NCBI RefSeq assembly: GCF_001761325.1
Contig: NZ_CP017478.1
Span: 2,129,501-2,193,500, forward strand
Length of the DNA stretch: 64,000 nt
Origin: Urechidicola croceus
GTDB taxonomy: Bacteria; Bacteroidota; Bacteroidia; Flavobacteriales; Flavobacteriaceae
Reading direction: 5' to 3'
In this document: piece by piece, positions 11,097 to 17,788 of the stretch
Layout: every line of letters begins with the position of its first letter
Position numbering within the stretch: position 1 is the stretch's first letter
The notes under the pieces: model-generated
Told to the model about the DNA's origin: nothing
The model's database searches: none
Seen by the model: only the letters and a program-made list of their open reading frames with translations
Made by a program: the position numbers and the translations under genes

Positions 11097-12182
11097 TTAA
11101 TTAATTTTTCTAGGTTTGGGCATCGCATGAGATTTACTTTTTGGAACTAACTTTAACCTCATTAAACCTTTATCCCTAAAATGCCTAGAAATCTCATACG
11201 TCTTTTCTGTAAAATCATCAATTCTATCTGATCTTTGATAGTAAAAAATTTTAATTGATTTACAATTTACGTGTTCAAAAATTTGATTTAACATCGTTCT
11301 ATCTGATAAGCCACAAGAATGTCCGATTATATACACTTGAAAATCATCAGATTCAATAAATCTTGTTAAGTCATGATAATTTGTCGTCTGTGAATACTTA
11401 AAAGACTTAATATGAGTAAATAAGTTATTGTTTTTTAAATTTTCAAATTCTAAATAATTTTTATCGAATTCATCACCAAAACCAAAAACAATTGGATTTT
11501 CTTCATTATCTAACTCACCATGAATAAAATTAAAACCTAATTGAACTTCTTTTAAATGAAGTTGGGTAAACCCATAATAATTTTCAAATGTTTTGGTATA
11601 GTTGAAATTTAAAAAATATATTGTTGCTGGATTTATATCATTATCTAATTTTACAGTAACAATATCATCTTTTTTTATTCTCTCAGTGAATAAAGATGAA
11701 TATGGTCGATGGTGAAAATTTACTTCTGATAAGTTTAGTTCAATTAAATATTCTTTAAGTTTTTGACGTAAATAATCAAATTCATTATTTAATTTTATTA
11801 TTTGATTATTATTTTGCGAATATGACTTTAACAATTCAAAAAAATCATTTTCTATATCTACCCACTTTAATTCATTTAAATTAGTATATATCTTTGAAAA
11901 TAAATGTGAATGAAATTTAACTTTGCATTTACCTTCTTTTATAATTTTGTCAATAGAAAGTCGTATTTCTTTAAAATTTGTAATCTTAAAATCATTTTCA
12001 TAAAGTGGGTATTTATCAATACCTGTATAGGATAATTCAAATAATACATCTTTATAACTAGAATCTCTAATTAAAAAATCTTCTAGTATTTTTTTAAAAT
12101 AATCAAAAATGAAATCTTTATAACTTGTTTTAAAACCATGAGCTAGGTCAAAACCATTTCCAATTAAAATAAGTCTGTTCAT
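11097..12182 (-). CDS. AbiH-family phage abortive infection protein
   Basis: A protein of about 361 residues whose N-terminus LILIGNGFDLAHGFKTSYKDF is the hallmark of the AbiH family, named after a lactococcal abortive-infection system. The conserved C-terminal motif YIIGHSCGLSDRTMLNQIF is also present. The mechanism of the family is not established; the GNGFDLAHG loop resembles a nucleotide-binding turn. I chose ATG at 12182, where family similarity begins; an in-frame ATG at 12203 would add seven residues. It lies between the KAS-type gene and bioB on the same strand, in a region otherwise devoted to biotin synthesis, so it is probably an insertion. It could act alone as a phage-defence gene. 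Confidence 0.85.
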   Translation of the reverse strand: MNRLILIGNGFDLAHGFKTSYKDFIFDYFKKILEDFLIRDSSYKDVLFELSYTGIDKYPLYENDFKITNFKEIRLSIDKIIKEGKCKVKFHSHLFSKIYTNLNELKWVDIENDFFELLKSYSQNNNQIIKLNNEFDYLRQKLKEYLIELNLSEVNFHHRPYSSLFTERIKKDDIVTVKLDNDINPATIYFLNFNYTKTFENYYGFTQLHLKEVQLGFNFIHGELDNEENPIVFGFGDEFDKNYLEFENLKNNNLFTHIKSFKYSQTTNYHDLTRFIESDDFQVYIIGHSCGLSDRTMLNQIFEHVNCKSIKIFYYQRSDRIDDFTEKTYEISRHFRDKGLMRLKLVPKSKSHAMPKPRKIN

Positions 12183-12234
12183 TTTGTAATCAGTCTTCTT
12201 CATAAAATATTATTTTTATATATAAAAGTAATAA

Positions 12235-13437
12235 TTACTTTGATAACAATATAGAAACAGCATTCCCACCAAAACCTACAGCATTTACCAATACTTTTTT
12301 AATTTGACTTGGTTGTTTTTGACTCTCTAAAAATGGAATATTTATAAATTTTTGATGTTGCATCATCAAAATTGCCAATTCTATACTCAATGCACCAGAC
12401 GCACCAAACGTATGACCTATTTTCCATTTATTGGATGTTAGTGCTGGAATAGTTTCTCCAAAAACTGATTGCATTGCTTTATACTCAGAAGTGTCTCCTT
12501 TAATTGTACCAGGCGCGTGCATAACGACAACATCAACTTCAGATGGATCAATATTCTGTAATGCCATTTTCATTGATTTTTGAAAACAAATAGCATCATC
12601 TGAAATGGAAATATTATGCTTCAAAATTTCGGTTGCATATCCTACTCCTTCAATGGTAGCAATAGCATTATCTTTTATTCCTTTTTCCAAACACATTACC
12701 GATGCCCCTTCACCTAATATCATGGTGTTTCTTTTCTTCGAAAAATCTAATGTTTTTGAAGGGTAAAAATATTGTTGATGAGATTCTGAAACAAGTTCAG
12801 AGTGACGCTCGACTGAAGATTGCCCGTTGAACGGAGTCGAAGCGTAGATTTTCAATGCTTTCATTTGAGCAATTGTGAATGGTGTTAAAGGTGCTTCACT
12901 ACCACCAACTAAAAACTTTTCACTCATACCAGAATTAATCCATGCAATTCCATTTAAAACTGCATGCAAAGCTGTTGAACAAGTAATGGAATGACTAATT
13001 GTTGGTCCCTGTGATTGTAAATCGTGTGCTATCCAAGATGAAATATTTCCTAACGTAGTTGTAGGAGAAGCTAACGTTTCAGTTTTATTTCTTTCTAAAA
13101 AGTCTTCGTGATATTTTTCAAATAGTGCCGTAGCACCTCGAGAAGAACCTATATTTATCCCAAAATCTCCATCTGACCAATTGGCTTTTTTTACTGCTTT
13201 TCGAGAAGCGTAAATTGCCATTAAAACTGACTTATCTAGACTTTTATATTTGTTATCTGATAAACGTAATTTTTCTATTTCTTCAGATACTTCATCTGAT
13301 AAAGGAGCTATTAATACATTCAATTTATTCTTAACAAACAAGTGTTTATTATCTAAATATCTTTGCCATATATATTCATATTGACTTCCCAAAGGGGAAA
13401 CAGAAGCGATTGATGTTATAGAAATTGAATTTTGCAC
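12235..13437 (-). CDS. Beta-ketoacyl-ACP synthase of the biotin locus (FabF-like), with repeat-derived insert
   Basis: A thiolase-fold condensing enzyme of about 400 residues. Numbering from GTG 13437, the triad is Cys153 (SITCSTALH), His307 (MHAPGT) and His342 (IGHTFGASG). KAS homologues often lie in Bacteroidota biotin clusters, where they may help build the pimeloyl chain; the exact reaction is not proven. I chose GTG 13437 because upstream codons overlap the -7 element TACTTTTG (13456-13463) and homology (ISITSIASVSPLGS) starts right after it; TTG at 13458 would be the longer alternative. Residues about 198-221 (NGQSSVERHSELVSESH) are encoded by palindromic repeats at 12777-12844 and sit in a loop before ALDFSKK-type sequence. 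Confidence 0.9.
   Translation of the reverse strand: MQNSISITSIASVSPLGSQYEYIWQRYLDNKHLFVKNKLNVLIAPLSDEVSEEIEKLRLSDNKYKSLDKSVLMAIYASRKAVKKANWSDGDFGINIGSSRGATALFEKYHEDFLERNKTETLASPTTTLGNISSWIAHDLQSQGPTISHSITCSTALHAVLNGIAWINSGMSEKFLVGGSEAPLTPFTIAQMKALKIYASTPFNGQSSVERHSELVSESHQQYFYPSKTLDFSKKRNTMILGEGASVMCLEKGIKDNAIATIEGVGYATEILKHNISISDDAICFQKSMKMALQNIDPSEVDVVVMHAPGTIKGDTSEYKAMQSVFGETIPALTSNKWKIGHTFGASGALSIELAILMMQHQKFINIPFLESQKQPSQIKKVLVNAVGFGGNAVSILLSK
12777..12844. repeat. Palindromic repeat unit plus a second hairpin, in frame inside the KAS gene
   Basis: Bases 12777-12807 hold one copy of the 29-base hairpin unit (stem CTGAA/TTCAG, ends ATGAGA and TGAC). Bases 12806-12844 hold a different imperfect palindrome (CGCTCGACT with AGTCGAAGCG). 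Both are read in frame in the synthase gene. Confidence 0.85.
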
Positions 13438-13455
13438 TAATTTTTGTATTTTTAG

Positions 13456-13463
13456 CAAAAGTA
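13456..13463 (-). promoter_or_regulatory. -7 element of the KAS gene
   Basis: The minus strand reads TACTTTTG, exact TAnnTTTG, 18 bases upstream of the GTG at 13437. It overlaps the alternative TTG start at 13458, which argues against that start. Confidence 0.5.
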
Positions 13464-13527
13464 AGGCTTCTCAAATTTATTTCACATTATTTAAAGAATG
13501 AAATAATTAGATAAAATTTTTATTAAA

Positions 13528-13962
13528 ATGAATGAATTGGTTAAAGAAAAAAGTTGGTTTAATAGAAACTGGAAGTGGTTCGTACCTGTAAGTGGGTGTC
13601 TACTTATTATTATTCTATTTATTTTTGGAATAGGTGCAGCAATTTTTGGCATATCAAAAGTTTTAACAAATTCTGAACCTTATGAATATGCTATTGAGCA
13701 AGCTAATAAAAATCAACATTTAATTGATCAAATTGGAGAACCAATTGAAAGTAACGGTATGATGAATGGTAATATTTCTCTAAAAAACAAGCAAGGAAAT
13801 GCAAATTTTACCATCCCAATAAAAGGTTCTAAAGGCAAAGGAACGCTTCATGTAATTGCCGAAAAATTTGATGGCGATTGGGTTTATGAAGATTTATACG
13901 TCACCATAAACCAAACAAATGACAAAGTCAATTTACTAGACAAATCATCAGAGGATTTCTAA
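13528..13962 (+). CDS. Coa1/Tim21-like small membrane protein
   Basis: A 144-residue protein with a single N-terminal membrane helix (about residues 16-38) and an extracytoplasmic domain of roughly 95 residues. The pattern AIEQANKNQHLIDQIGEPI, then GNISLKNKQGNANFTIPIKGSKGKGTLHVIAEK and WVYEDLYV, matches the cytochrome c oxidase assembly factor Coa1 family found widely in bacteria. A role in oxidase assembly is inferred from the eukaryotic family only. Its 3' end overlaps the convergent bioA end by 15 bases. It stands alone and is divergent from the KAS gene. Confidence 0.8.
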   Translation: MNELVKEKSWFNRNWKWFVPVSGCLLIIILFIFGIGAAIFGISKVLTNSEPYEYAIEQANKNQHLIDQIGEPIESNGMMNGNISLKNKQGNANFTIPIKGSKGKGTLHVIAEKFDGDWVYEDLYVTINQTNDKVNLLDKSSEDF

Positions 13963-15213
13963 CGCTTCTTCAATAGTTTTATACACTTTTTCTAATTGCT
14001 CATCAGTAATTACAAACGGTGCCAAAATATAAATTGTATTCCCTAACGGACGTAAAAACACACCATTCTCCATAAAATGATTGAATAGTTTATCTCTTAA
14101 ATTTCCATATCGCTCCATTTTTATATTTAATTCTAAGGCATAAATGATTCCTAATTGTCTTGTGGCTCCAACTTTAGAATGGTTTTTAATTTTACTATCA
14201 AACTCTTGGTGCGAATTTGTAATTCGTTTGATATTTTTTTGAATTTCATCACTTTTTAATAATTCCATACTCGCCAAAGCCGCAGTACAAGCTAGAGGAT
14301 TGGCAGAATATGTATGGCCATGAAATAAACCTTTAGAAATGTCATCAGCATAAAAAGCATCATATACTTTTTGAGTACACGTTGTCAGTGCCATTGGAGC
14401 AATTCCTCCAGTAAGTGATTTTGACAAGCATATAATATCTGGCTTATTAATAAGATAATCCGATGCAAAATTCTTACCTGTTTTCCCAAATCCTGTCATC
14501 ACTTCATCGGCTATTGTAAGCACGTGATTTTCATTGGCTATAGCGATTAATTCATCCAAATATTTTGCTTCATACATAAACATTGCAGATGCTCCTTGAA
14601 CCAATGGCTCAAAAATAAAAGAGGCAACATTGCCAACTTTTAATAATGCTAAAAACTGCTTTTTAACGTCTTCAAAATTGTCTTTGTTCGGAACTGGAAT
14701 TCTAGCTACATCAATAAAAAACTCTTCAAATGGCCCATTATAAACTGACAATCCTGAAACTGACATTGCTCCAAAAGTATCTCCATGAAATCCGCCTTCT
14801 AGCGCAACAATTTTTGTTTGCTTATTTCCTTGATTAAAATGATATTGTAATGACATTTTAATTGCCACATCAACCGATGTAGAGCCATTATCTGAAAAGA
14901 AAATCTTTTGCTGATTTTGAGGAAGAATTTCCATCAGTGCTTCAGACATTTCAATTGCAGGCTTATGTGTAAATCCGCTAAAAATAGTGAAGTCTAATTC
15001 GCTTAATTGTGCTTTGATTTTATTTGTAATAAATTCATTACAATGACCATACATACAAGTATACCAAGAGGAAATTCCATCGATATATTCATTGCCTTTT
15101 TCATCAAATAATAATGCCCCATTTGCTTTTACAATCGCTAAATGATTAGGATGCAATTTGTGTTGCGTTAATGGATGCCACAAATGTTTTTTATCTCGTT
15201 CTTGTAAACTCAT
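13948..15213 (-). CDS. bioA: Adenosylmethionine-8-amino-7-oxononanoate aminotransferase
   Basis: A 421-residue fold-type I PLP enzyme that converts 7-keto-8-aminopelargonate (KAPA) to 7,8-diaminopelargonate (DAPA) using S-adenosylmethionine as amino donor. The PLP Lys is Lys265 (LSKSLTGG) and the PLP-ring Asp is Asp236 (IADEVMTG). The N-terminal HLWHPLTQH and GISSWYTCMYGH blocks distinguish BioA from other omega-aminotransferases. The length is normal and no insertion is seen. A repeat-filled gap of about 216 bases separates it from bioD upstream, so it may have its own promoter (TATCTTCG, one mismatch to TAnnTTTG, near 15257-15264). Confidence 0.96.
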   Translation of the reverse strand: MSLQERDKKHLWHPLTQHKLHPNHLAIVKANGALLFDEKGNEYIDGISSWYTCMYGHCNEFITNKIKAQLSELDFTIFSGFTHKPAIEMSEALMEILPQNQQKIFFSDNGSTSVDVAIKMSLQYHFNQGNKQTKIVALEGGFHGDTFGAMSVSGLSVYNGPFEEFFIDVARIPVPNKDNFEDVKKQFLALLKVGNVASFIFEPLVQGASAMFMYEAKYLDELIAIANENHVLTIADEVMTGFGKTGKNFASDYLINKPDIICLSKSLTGGIAPMALTTCTQKVYDAFYADDISKGLFHGHTYSANPLACTAALASMELLKSDEIQKNIKRITNSHQEFDSKIKNHSKVGATRQLGIIYALELNIKMERYGNLRDKLFNHFMENGVFLRPLGNTIYILAPFVITDEQLEKVYKTIEEALEIL

Positions 15214-15283
15214 TAATTATGTTTCAATTTCAGCCCTTAAAAAAATTAAGAGCGAAGATACTTTATGTTTTAAAAACAATCTT

Positions 15284-15346
15284 GTCAAAATTGATTTAGC
15301 ATCTCATATTTTATATAATGCGAATCTGAAATAAATTCAGATTGAC
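15284..15346. repeat. Palindromic repeat pair, left unit degenerate
   Basis: The right 29-base unit (15318-15346) is intact, with stem AATCTGAA/TTCAGATT. The left partner is shortened and its hairpin is lost (remnant ends TTTAGCATCTCAT). The AT/AT base pairs differ from the GC and CC/GG pairs of other copies but keep the stem. Confidence 0.8.
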
Positions 15347-15369
15347 GATTCTGACTTGATTTTTTATAC

Positions 15370-15439
15370 GTCATGCTGAACTTGTTTCAGCATCTCATGT
15401 TGCTTTTTTGATGCGACCCTGAAATAAATTCAGGGTGAC
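15370..15439. repeat. Complete inverted pair of the 29-base hairpin unit
   Basis: Left unit 15370-15398 (stem ATGCTGAA/TTCAGCAT), 12-base T-rich spacer, right unit 15411-15439 (stem CCCTGAA/TTCAGGG), in inverted orientation, 70 bases in all. Its right end supplies the last residues (SP) and the stop codon of bioD. Confidence 0.92.
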
Positions 15440-16056
15440 ATTAATTTATTTCGAAATAAATCCGCATATTCTTTGATGACATTCTTATCAAAATATGGTT
15501 CTTCTTCTATCCTTCCAATTACCGGAACACTTGTCATTTTCTTGATAATTGCCTCTGTTGTTTTATGTTCGTCTCCACTAAAAATAAGCGACACATCAAA
15601 CCCTTTTTCTTTTAACAAATTGACCGTTAAAAGTGTATGATTGATACTCCCCAAATAATGACGAGATACCACAATTACTTTGTAATCTGGTTTTATTATA
15701 TCCAGAATCGTTTCGCTATCATTCAAAGGAACTAACAATCCTCCTGCACCTTCAACCACCAAATTATTTTTTGTTTTTGGCTCCTTTATTTTTTTTAATT
15801 CAATAATAATTCCGTCAATTTCTGCTGCAGCATGCGGACTCATAGGCGTTTTTAAAGCATATGAATTGGGATAAAATTTAGATTTAGAATTTGAAATTAG
15901 TTTTTCAACTTTATGTGTATCAGAATATTCTAAATCTCCTGCTTGTATCGGTTTCCAATAATCTGCTTGTAATGCTTCTACTACAATTGCTGATGCAACT
16001 GTTTTACCTACTTCAGTAGAAATTCCTGTGATGAAATATTTGTTTTGTTTTTTCAT
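15430..16056 (-). CDS. bioD: Dethiobiotin synthase
   Basis: A 208-residue ATP-dependent carboxylase that closes the ureido ring of dethiobiotin. The P-loop is GISTEVGKT (residues 11-19), with KPIQAGD and the VEGAGGLLVPL block also present. I chose ATG at 16056: the open frame extends upstream to 16158, but that extension is translated palindromic repeat (LKQIQGDE) and has no family similarity. The C-terminal MSP and the TGA stop are also repeat sequence. Upstream lies the GIY-YIG gene, downstream the repeat-filled gap to bioA. Confidence 0.94.
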   Translation of the reverse strand: MKKQNKYFITGISTEVGKTVASAIVVEALQADYWKPIQAGDLEYSDTHKVEKLISNSKSKFYPNSYALKTPMSPHAAAEIDGIIIELKKIKEPKTKNNLVVEGAGGLLVPLNDSETILDIIKPDYKVIVVSRHYLGSINHTLLTVNLLKEKGFDVSLIFSGDEHKTTEAIIKKMTSVPVIGRIEEEPYFDKNVIKEYADLFRNKLMSP

Positions 16057-16062
16057 ATATTC

Positions 16063-16091
16063 GTCACCCTGAATTTGTTTCAGGGTCGCAT
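16063..16091. repeat. Single 29-base hairpin unit between bioD and the GIY-YIG gene
   Basis: Stem CACCCTGAA/TTTCAGGGT region with the end motifs GTCA and GCAT, inverted relative to the right unit of the complete pairs. It lies 7 bases upstream of the bioD ATG and just downstream of the GIY-YIG stop codon. Confidence 0.88.
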
Positions 16092-16097
16092 AATTAA

Positions 16098-16379
16098 TTA
16101 TTGGTAATCTAATGTTTCTAGTTTTGGGTTCATTTCTTTTATTAGGTTTAACTTCCATTCTTTATGCCAATTCTTCAATTGCTTCTCTCTTGCTATTGCT
16201 TGCTCAACATCTATAAATTGTTCATAATAAACTAAATTTATAATTTGGTACTTCTTGGTAAAAACGGATGCTTTTCCTTCATAATGTTCGTATAATCTTT
16301 TTGAAAGATTTGTAGTAACTCCAATATAAAAAGTTGTTCTGTATTTATTAGTTAGTATGTATACAAAACTATTTTTCAT
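16098..16379 (-). CDS. Single-domain GIY-YIG endonuclease
   Basis: A 93-residue protein that is almost only a GIY-YIG nuclease domain. FVYILTN and TTFYIGVTTNLSKRLYEHYEG give the two strand motifs and the catalytic Arg. The catalytic Glu is probably Glu in YYEQF or AIAREKQLKNW, and the UPF0213/YhbQ-like ending KEWKLNLI follows. I chose ATG at 16379, where the domain begins (MKNSFVYIL); an earlier ATG at 16400 adds seven residues that are probably leader. It is wedged between bioF and bioD and bracketed by repeat copies at 16063-16091 and 16471-16540. It has no biotin role and is likely part of, or associated with, the repeat elements. Confidence 0.88.
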   Translation of the reverse strand: MKNSFVYILTNKYRTTFYIGVTTNLSKRLYEHYEGKASVFTKKYQIINLVYYEQFIDVEQAIAREKQLKNWHKEWKLNLIKEMNPKLETLDYQ

Positions 16380-16470
16380 AATTGGATGTGACTGAAACAA
16401 TATTGAAACTATTTCAATATATAATTTGGAATGGCCATTTCCTTACTCTTAATTCTTACTTTTAACGAGC

Positions 16471-16540
16471 GTCATGCTGAACTTGTTTCAGCATCTCATG
16501 TTGTTTTTTTGATGCGACCCTGAAATAAATTCAGGGTGAC
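16471..16540. repeat. Complete inverted pair of the 29-base hairpin unit
   Basis: Left unit 16471-16499, 12-base spacer, right unit 16512-16540. Both units are identical to those of the copy at 15370-15439; only the spacer differs slightly. It lies 9 bases beyond the bioF stop codon. Confidence 0.92.
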
Positions 16541-16549
16541 GTCATTTTA

Positions 16550-17788
16550 TTAATTTAATACAAAAGTAGCAAGTAGTTTTAAAACTTTGCTTATTTCTTC
16601 TTGTGAATTATAACTATGTAAGCAAAAACGCAATCTTTCTTGCCCTTCTGGAACAGTTGGAGATAATATAGGTTTTACATCAAACCCTTTTTCTTGAACA
16701 AATTGGGCTGCTTTTTTTACATTTTCATTTCCAGAAATGATACAACAATGAATAGCAGAGTTGCTTGGAATAAATATTGGTTTGCCCCTTTGTCCTTCGG
16801 ACATTTCCCCAAAGGGGAAAGTTTTTAGTTGTTGGTTGAAATATTGAATATTCTCTTTTAATTTTTGAGACTTCTCAACTCCGCTAGAAGAAATAAGATA
16901 CTCATATGCAATTTTAATTGTAGCCAATGAATGGGGTGGTAGTGCAGTTGTATAAATAAAGCTTCGTGCAAAATTGACTAAGTAACTTTTTAATTCCTTA
17001 CTTCCTAAAATTGCTGCACCGTGACAACCTAAGCCTTTTCCAAATGTGATAATTCGAGCAAATATTTCATTTTCTAATCCTAATTCTTGAATTAATCCAC
17101 AACCATTTTTTCCGAAAACACCTAATGCATGTGCTTCATCGATTATTAAATAAGTGTTATACTTTTTACATATTTCTAAAAGTGAAACTAAATCTGGAGA
17201 ATCTCCATCCATTGAAAAAACAGACTCGGTTACGACGTAAATATCACCGTCATGCTGAACTTGTTTCAGCATCTCATCTTGCTCTTTTTTATGCGACTCT
17301 GAAATAAATTCAGTGTGACTTAAACGCTTCAATAATTCTTCTAAAACGCCCAAGTCATTATGTTTAAATTTATATGATTTGGCATTACTCATTTTTATTC
17401 CGTCACGGATAGACGCATGAATAAACTCATCATAAATAATTGTATCTCCACGCTGTGGAACAGATGAAAAAAATCCAATATTGGCATCATAGCCAGAATT
17501 AAATATTGTTGCAGCCTCTGAATTATGAAATTTACAAAGAGTATTTTCTACTTCTTCATATAATTTGTGGTTTCCAGATAATAAACGAGATCCTGTAGAA
17601 CCGTTTTGATGAATTTTATTATTTATTAAATATTGATGTGCCTTTTGAAAAATAGTCTCAGATTTTGAAAAACCTAAATAATCATTTGAAGAAAAATCAA
17701 TTAATTCACTTTGAGAATTGAGTTTTCGTAGAGAATTGGATTGTTCTCTATTGGTTAATTTTTTATATAGTTTCTTTGGAAAATTCAT
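16550..17788 (-). CDS. bioF: 8-amino-7-oxononanoate synthase with two repeat-derived inserts
   Basis: A 412-residue PLP-dependent alpha-oxoamine synthase joining pimeloyl thioester and alanine to give KAPA. Seen are GSTGSRLLSGNH, the VTESVFSMDGD strand, the LIIDEAHALGVFG block (Asp217) and the PLP Lys251 (TFGKGLGCHG). Family members are usually about 380 residues. The excess is explained by two inserts: residues 157-180, encoded by a complete palindromic pair, and residues about 323-335 (FGEMSEGQRG), encoded by another palindrome. Without them the length is about 375. Both fall in loops between conserved blocks and the frame is kept, so the enzyme may still work. Its start adjoins the stop of the upstream membrane-protein gene. 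Confidence 0.95.
   Translation of the reverse strand: MNFPKKLYKKLTNREQSNSLRKLNSQSELIDFSSNDYLGFSKSETIFQKAHQYLINNKIHQNGSTGSRLLSGNHKLYEEVENTLCKFHNSEAATIFNSGYDANIGFFSSVPQRGDTIIYDEFIHASIRDGIKMSNAKSYKFKHNDLGVLEELLKRLSHTEFISESHKKEQDEMLKQVQHDGDIYVVTESVFSMDGDSPDLVSLLEICKKYNTYLIIDEAHALGVFGKNGCGLIQELGLENEIFARIITFGKGLGCHGAAILGSKELKSYLVNFARSFIYTTALPPHSLATIKIAYEYLISSSGVEKSQKLKENIQYFNQQLKTFPFGEMSEGQRGKPIFIPSNSAIHCCIISGNENVKKAAQFVQEKGFDVKPILSPTVPEGQERLRFCLHSYNSQEEISKVLKLLATFVLN
16784..16820. repeat. GC-rich nested palindrome inside bioF
   Basis: CCCCTTTG (16785-16792) pairs with CAAAGGGG (16810-16817). GTCC-TTC-GGAC is nested inside, and TTTCCCC-AAA-GGGGAAA (16804-16820) forms an alternative hairpin. It is far richer in G+C than the surrounding gene and is translated in frame as about 13 residues. 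It is a different repeat family from the 29-base units. Confidence 0.75.
17249..17319. repeat. Complete inverted hairpin-unit pair inside the bioF coding sequence
   Basis: Left unit 17249-17277, 13-base spacer, right unit 17291-17319, in the same orientation as the copies at 15370 and 16471. The right hairpin has one mismatched pair (T-T). It is read in frame as bioF residues 157-180. Confidence 0.92.

Follow-up and report, generated by a model that had tools for sequence, protein, structure and literature searches.

Repetitive extragenic palindromic (REP) sequences with an unpaired CGTC tag form a superfamily among whose hosts Bacteroidetes have already been listed (Di Nocera, De Gregorio and Rocco 2013; PMC3733652). 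In the portions of that paper drawn on here, CGTC REPs have a stem of 8-9 bp and a loop of 4-5 nt, the first and second stem pairs are "almost invariably" A-T and T-A, the tail is mostly CCA, and head-to-head (HH) dimers predominate, tail-to-tail (TT) ones being rare. The dRS3 repeat of Neisseria was equated with CGTC-1, and RPE-6 and RPE-4 of Rickettsia with CGTC-1 and CGTC-4; Azospirillum lipoferum and Novosphingobium aromaticivorans are also named. According to the same portions, CGTC repeats are unassociated with transposase genes and the elements "seem lacking a dedicated transposase", so that their means of spread was left open.

The present analysis concerns 64,000 nucleotides of Urechidicola croceus (NZ_CP017478.1, positions 2,129,501 to 2,193,500; hereafter the window), in which the biotin (bio) genes hold a cluster of such units and, among them, a gene for a small GIY-YIG nuclease (16098-16400; GIY gene in short) that a first-pass annotation of the repeats had left unmentioned. 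Since tag hairpins lie close to GIY genes, frequently on both sides, in many bacterial groups, the GIY enzyme is the leading candidate for spreading the REPs. It probably mobilises them, the units being the non-autonomous form and REP-GIY-YIG gene-REP the autonomous form of one element. No statement of a GIY-YIG/REP association was found in the open-licence PMC literature, subscription journals and preprints lying outside the search.

Bracketing of GIY-YIG genes by tag hairpins

A search of 60 genomes gave 79 GIY matches, 73 of which were examined in 70 loci and six left out; two fragments raise the 73 to 75. A tag hairpin lay within 250 bp of 42 of the 75, and an outward (HH) pair was present in 23. 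When the genes were sorted by motif (73 after dropping two duplicates), the bracketed type had any hairpin in 37/52 and an HH pair in 22/52, against 4/21 and 0/21 in its sister clade, the RRP type (Fisher 6.6e-5 for any hairpin).

A genome collection was then scanned by protein alignment alone, and from at least 558 matches the 80 closest to the query alignment were taken. These loci come mostly from metagenome-assembled genomes (MAGs), some of them from one isolate or near relatives, and their record titles name Bacteroidota, alpha-, beta-, gamma- and deltaproteobacteria, Neisseria, spirochaetes, Mesoaciditogaceae, Elusimicrobiales, Chloroflexi, candidate phyla and others. The generic hairpin detector used on them had been written after viewing loci L106-L135 (one of the 80, L176, is the same place as L107). 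It finds seven of the nine window units and misses two, all of its seven matches in the 64 kb being units; a few of its matches elsewhere look spurious. Tag hairpins were detected within 250 bp of the gene in 71/80 loci, with HH pairs in 40/80. Within 300 bp the count was 72/80, and a plus-strand hairpin on the left with a minus-strand one on the right occurred in 40/80; shuffles gave 62/1600 and 0/1600, respectively. Imperfect tag hairpins, outside these counts, were seen by eye on at least one side in 8 of the 9 loci without a detector match. Stems at the 80 loci include ATTCCCGC-gaag-GCGGGAAT and the 9-bp ATGGCCGGG, and CCA tails were seen at many loci of other phyla.

The hairpins are concentrated at the gene. 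Over the 100 bp nearest to it their density is 6.8 per kb, falling to at most 0.36 beyond 400 bp, and distal windows at 1.06-1.4 kb held any hairpin in only 4/57 cases and an outward pair in 0/57. Within 60 bp, 75 hairpins pointed outward and 16 inward, and the nearest outward hairpin lay at a median distance of 33 bp on the left and 32.5 bp on the right. HH pairs around other open reading frames (ORFs) numbered 6/105 (REP-dense own loci), 0/44 and 1/139.

Plasmids and viral contigs also hold such loci. Plasmid records matching the GIY protein numbered 35 (Rhizobium 9, Sphingobium 7, Sinorhizobium 4, Shinella 4, Neisseria 2, and others), with Azospirillum lipoferum and Novosphingobium aromaticivorans among them, and the detector found tag hairpins in 6/8 plasmid loci; none was detected at one R. 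tumorigenes GIY locus. Among 31 GIY loci on viral contigs, 20 had any hairpin and 13 an HH pair. Similar GIY proteins also carry similar REP stems (Mantel r 0.28, reached in 0/2000 permutations). Cognate specificity among distant GIY proteins was tried as a further claim and found weak.

The GIY-YIG protein

The window ORF encodes 93-100 amino acids (aa), the first ATG at 16379 giving 93 aa. The GIY-YIG domain PF01541 was found in 20/20 members of set A2, and the invariant residues include Y7, Y18, G20, R28, H32, E65 and N84. The predicted structure (predicted local distance difference test, pLDDT, 90.6) has its best solved match in 1zg2 (UPF0213, E 9e-4), followed by Slx1 (E 0.05), a branched-DNA nuclease. 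The family of the protein is presumably COG2827.

Three such GIY genes are present in the source genome, each adjoining a different family of tag hairpins. The second of them (locus L137, source genome G000, 2120702-2122989) is embedded in a 147-bp tandem array of ATTTCGA tag hairpins, with 6.1 copies on one side and 3.9 on the other in the stretch examined. In Lutibacter NORP37 the same bio operon contains two GIY homologues, both adjoining such units and one of them lying between an outward pair. Some other loci depart from the simple form. At L156 and L166, RRP-type GIY domains are N-terminal in open frames that extend for at least about 415 aa up to the locus end, and are apparently fused to another domain; at L175 the gene is truncated where a ATTCCTGC-type hairpin would read as IPAFAGVT; and at L263, a Planktothrix plasmid, a GIY gene with tag hairpins nearby lies between an MmeI-like restriction-modification gene and the DISARM gene drmA.

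Repeat units of the biotin locus and of the source genome

The window was searched with the pattern ATGMGANNCTGAAAYAARTTCAGNNTGAC, up to three mismatches being allowed. Nine matches were obtained, every one exact (expected 0.00; 0/100 shuffles with any), and all lie within 12778-17319. In tag orientation a unit consists of CGTC, an 8-bp stem (A..CTGAA / TTCAG..T), a 5-nt loop (CTTGT or TTTAT) and a tail CTCAT or CGCAT. The features are as follows.

12778..12806, minus strand: single unit, tag end at 12806, within the ketoacyl-synthase ORF, in-frame reading RHSELVSES
13948..15213, minus strand: bioA
15288..15310, plus strand: degenerate left half of the pair ending at 15346
15318..15346, minus strand: unit with AT/AT outer stem pairs
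15370..15398, plus strand: left unit of an outward (HH) pair, loop CTTGT
15411..15439, minus strand: right unit of the outward pair starting at 15370, loop TTTAT
15430..16158, minus strand: bioD (longest ORF)
16063..16091, plus strand: left bracket of the GIY-YIG ORF, a unit about 10 bp away from it
16098..16400, minus strand: GIY-YIG endonuclease ORF, candidate mobiliser (PF01541, 57.5 bits, cut-off 22.6)
16471..16499, plus strand: left unit of the outward pair beyond the GIY-YIG gene
16512..16540, minus strand: right unit of the pair 16471-16540, right bracket of the GIY-YIG gene
16550..17788, minus strand: bioF (aminotransferase class I/II), holding an in-frame REP pair
17249..17277, plus strand: left unit of the outward pair within bioF
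17291..17319, minus strand: right unit of the bioF pair, in frame, with one stem mismatch

The places and the CTGAA/TTCAG stem that the first-pass annotation had given, its three inverted pairs (15370-15439, 16471-16540 and 17249-17319, with spacers of 12, 12 and 13 nt) and its pair with a decayed left half were all recovered. A correction concerns unit 12778-12806, in which a pair that is T-G on the strand read is C-A on the other strand. Its remark that no further units were seen holds for the 64 kb but not for the genome: in 3,426,122 bases (one contig), 79 cores were found at up to one mismatch, against 2 for a reversed control, and a covariance-model search gave 83 matches at E<=1. No Rfam family reached its gathering threshold within the window. 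Near the cluster, a second and different palindrome, GCTTCGACT..AGTCGAGC at 12804-12850, adjoins unit 12778-12806, both being in frame in the synthase ORF, and an AbiH-type abortive infection gene (PF14253, 104 bits) lies at 11097-12203 between bioB and the ketoacyl-synthase gene.

Among 56 distinct units of the genome, 48 have an unpaired CGTC or TGTC tag (CGTC 38, TGTC 10). The first stem pair is A-T in 55; the second is T-A in 31, C-G in 17, A-T in 4 and unpaired in 4. Tails include CTCAT (23), CGCAT (13) and CACAT (7). In tag, stem, loop and pair orientation the window units, mostly outward-tag pairs, fit the CGTC-REP superfamily; tail and second stem pair depart from its published description. 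Stem cells are paired in 97.1% over these units (shuffled mean 86.8%), and pairing falls to 56.3% or 37.7% when the partner column is slid by one. Cells changed on both sides number 50 against a shuffled mean of 14.0, a value that 0/500 shuffles reach, and the covariation score is 0.300 against 0.103; the compensatory changes proposed earlier are thus borne out. Two coarser counts, stem pairs with a double change (3, reached by 152/500 shuffles) and further stem pair types (9, reached by 472/500), are not above shuffles. Loop positions 13 and 16 covary too, with C..G in 30 and U..A in 23 of the 56 units. Five stretches folded as single-stranded DNA were more stable than shuffles (z -3.4 to -4.8), 1/200 shuffles equalling the stability of one of them.

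Neighbouring model matches within 70 bp of each other formed 26 pairs, namely 21 outward, 3 inward (TT) and 2 tandem (head-to-tail, HT), which is an outward excess over 25% (binomial p 4e-9); 33/83 matches were single copies. The same loop occurred in both partners in 5 of 18 outward pairs compared, and identical partners in none. The spacers of the 21 outward pairs range over 4-36 nt, so the 12-13 nt spacing is local and spacer length is not fixed. The first-pass annotation would have taken the arrangement for coincidental decay of ordinary repeats if inverted pairs at fixed spacing were not in excess and the stems showed no compensatory changes; both the pair excess and the covariation were found, though not the fixed spacing. 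In five copies, each 53 nt long, the loop encloses a second hairpin of 23 nt, and a similar form is present in a Winogradskyella locus (L234). Their places are:

Source genome (G000) 2116674-2116726, 1546440-1546492, 1546820-1546872, 2332778-2332830 and 2648634-2648686: 53-nt nested-hairpin copies

Co-occurrence and occupied or empty sites

In a survey of 296 Bacteroidota genomes, those with at least five copies of the CTGAA repeat were counted as repeat-rich (n=41). A GIY gene at E<=1e-10 was present in 39/41 of these and in 101/255 of the others (p 2.8e-12), and a close one (near the window protein, E<=1e-26) in 22/41 and 7/255 (p 2.5e-16). Inside f37, the largest contributing family, the close gene occurred in 17/21 repeat-rich genomes against 1/14; outside f37, at 1e-22, GIY genes were found in 13/20 against 14/241.

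GIY genes occupy many unrelated places, and occupied as well as empty sites were seen at two of them. In Azospirillum lipoferum 4B, sufB and sufC are separated by a GIY gene that is flanked left and right by hairpin pairs; in four relatives the GIY gene is absent from sufB-sufC and no tag hairpin was detected there. Beside fnrL of Sphingobium, the entire REP-GIY-REP place is matched by seven plasmids and missing from four, of which two hold one fused palindrome CGTC..GACG instead; this palindrome may be either scar or target. No usable empty site was obtained for the Rhizobium CIAT894 and Novosphingobium pNL2 plasmid loci or for one Magnetospirillum locus.

Within the bio genes, other Lutibacter species have different inserts in the bioF loop that holds the window pair, and the detector found other tag hairpins inside bioF of genomes G007, G008, G010 and G012. 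Tag hairpins also occur at the bioD-bioF junctions of the same four genomes, the junctions of G002 and G006 having been inspected only by eye. An outward ATTCCTGC pair lies at the bioA-bioD junction of G005, and the synthase ORF is also variable at its insert in the Lutibacter comparison. These varying inserts suggest repeated insertion or replacement at the same bio places.

Possible explanations

If the GIY enzyme is the mobiliser, it would recognise the REP hairpin or cruciform and nick near the tag, and host repair would then copy the REP, the REP pair or the entire element, either to a new site or over another REP. On balance we lean slightly towards a general form of this reading, in which the CGTC REPs of many phyla would represent the ends of one class of mobile element and its miniature derivatives, with a GIY-YIG nuclease of about 95 aa as the dedicated enzyme of this class and a transposase-free spread through hairpin cutting and host-repair copying, often from REP site to REP site.

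Several observations weigh against the GIY enzyme as mobiliser. GIY-YIG enzymes are not known as transposases, so that insertion would need host repair. The co-occurrence statistics are given without tree correction. At 1e-10 the contrast inside f37 is reduced to 21/21 against 10/14, and outside f37 the close-GIY test is weaker (5/20 against 6/241 at 1e-26). The close gene is lacking from 19/41 repeat-rich genomes, and in 7/61 repeat-bearing genomes no GIY gene was found at E<=1e-10, a search that may include RRP-type genes; two of these seven, G248 (20 copies) and G101 (7), have none by profile at 1e-4 either, and the remaining five have 1-4 repeat copies. The relatives G034 (3 model matches) and G005 (12; 77% complete) are likewise without GIY by profile at 1e-4, G038 (22 copies) has only two GIY genes, distant and unbracketed, and G009 (17 copies) has one with no hairpin detected beside it. 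Cognate matching is nearly gone among GIY proteins less than 60% identical (16/100 against 11.8 expected, over the 100 proteins that had a unit). One-sided hairpins are common near non-GIY ORFs in REP-rich loci (32/105, 9/44 and 77/139, the 139 adjoining GIY genes), and the outward pair is therefore the telling count.

GIY-YIG domains are typical of homing endonucleases, and the gene could be a homing parasite that enters pre-existing REP pairs by cutting between the two REPs, which would spread otherwise. Most REP pairs are without a GIY gene, and the single tag palindrome that replaces REP-GIY-REP in two Sphingobium strains could be a target rather than a scar. The match of the protein to TIGR01453 is weak, below the model cut-off. 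No tag hairpin was detected in the Azospirillum empty sites, however, and REP copy number tracks the presence and closeness of the GIY gene, which a late parasite need not cause; homing is thus considered unlikely. Both mobilisation and homing make the GIY protein REP-specific, and they differ on whether REP copies arise because of it.

It is improbable that the units serve the bio genes as terminators or stability elements and are kept for that use, with the GIY gene a bystander. Most units are located at the ends of genes, folding as RNA is possible, and the covariation is compatible with selection on RNA. However, some copies are intragenic, in bioF and in the synthase ORF, other Lutibacter species have different inserts at the same places, several of them other tag hairpins, and the bracketing of GIY genes in many phyla would be left unexplained.

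The source genome has one intact REP-associated tyrosine transposase (RAYT) gene at 1956804-1957376 (NF047646, 83.4 bits, cut-off 80), preceded by two copies of the unrelated palindrome CCCCGCTCCCGCTAGTTTGTAACTAGTGGCG, and a second, broken match at 1947605. Although the outward hairpin pairs resemble REPINs (REP doublets forming hairpins) and a RAYT gene exists in this genome, the mobilisation by RAYT proposed in the first-pass annotation is very improbable, as that gene carries its own unrelated repeats, NF047646-type RAYTs occur in 6/23 genomes with units and 7/37 without (p 0.54; 60 genomes, own included), the tag is CGTC and not GTAG, and in the portions cited of PMC3733652 no tyrosine transposase gene is flanked by CGTC sequences.

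With a small specific gene bracketed by CGTC REPs in many phyla, the question of REP spread can be put to a cleavage assay. Such a gene would also point to a role for the small UvrC-like GIY-YIG genes. Three of these are carried by Caulobacter crescentus, their role being treated as an open question in the part drawn on of a 2007 paper (PMC1839093), and the species is among the CGTC-positive ones named in PMC3733652.

Comparison with known systems

The nearest relatives of the window units are REPs of CGTC-2 shape. As far as the portions cited of PMC3733652 go, the two share the unpaired CGTC/TGTC tag, the 8-bp stem and the 5-nt loop, as well as the predominance of outward pairs, mixed partners and intragenic copies. 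They differ in that window-type units end in CTCAT or CGCAT and not in CCA, and that the second pair is T-A in only 31/56. The GIY-YIG gene bracketed here is a further difference, the term being absent from the main text of that paper. With respect to the dRS3 repeats of Neisseria, one Neisseria MAG (L217) has a GIY gene bracketed by hairpins whose loops are 4 nt long.

As in the REPtrons formed by REPs and RAYTs, and as in REPINs, an enzyme gene is bracketed by hairpins and accompanied by many gene-less copies, and, as in REPtrons, paralogues adjoin different hairpin families. However, the enzyme is a GIY-YIG nuclease here and an HUH tyrosine transposase there, and the tag is CGTC here and GTAG there. 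The GIY-YIG proteins of UPF0213/COG2827 (solved structures 1zg2 and 1ywl) have the same domain, size and predicted fold as the window protein; the clade described here is REP-bracketed, whereas its sister RRP clade is without an outward pair in 21/21.

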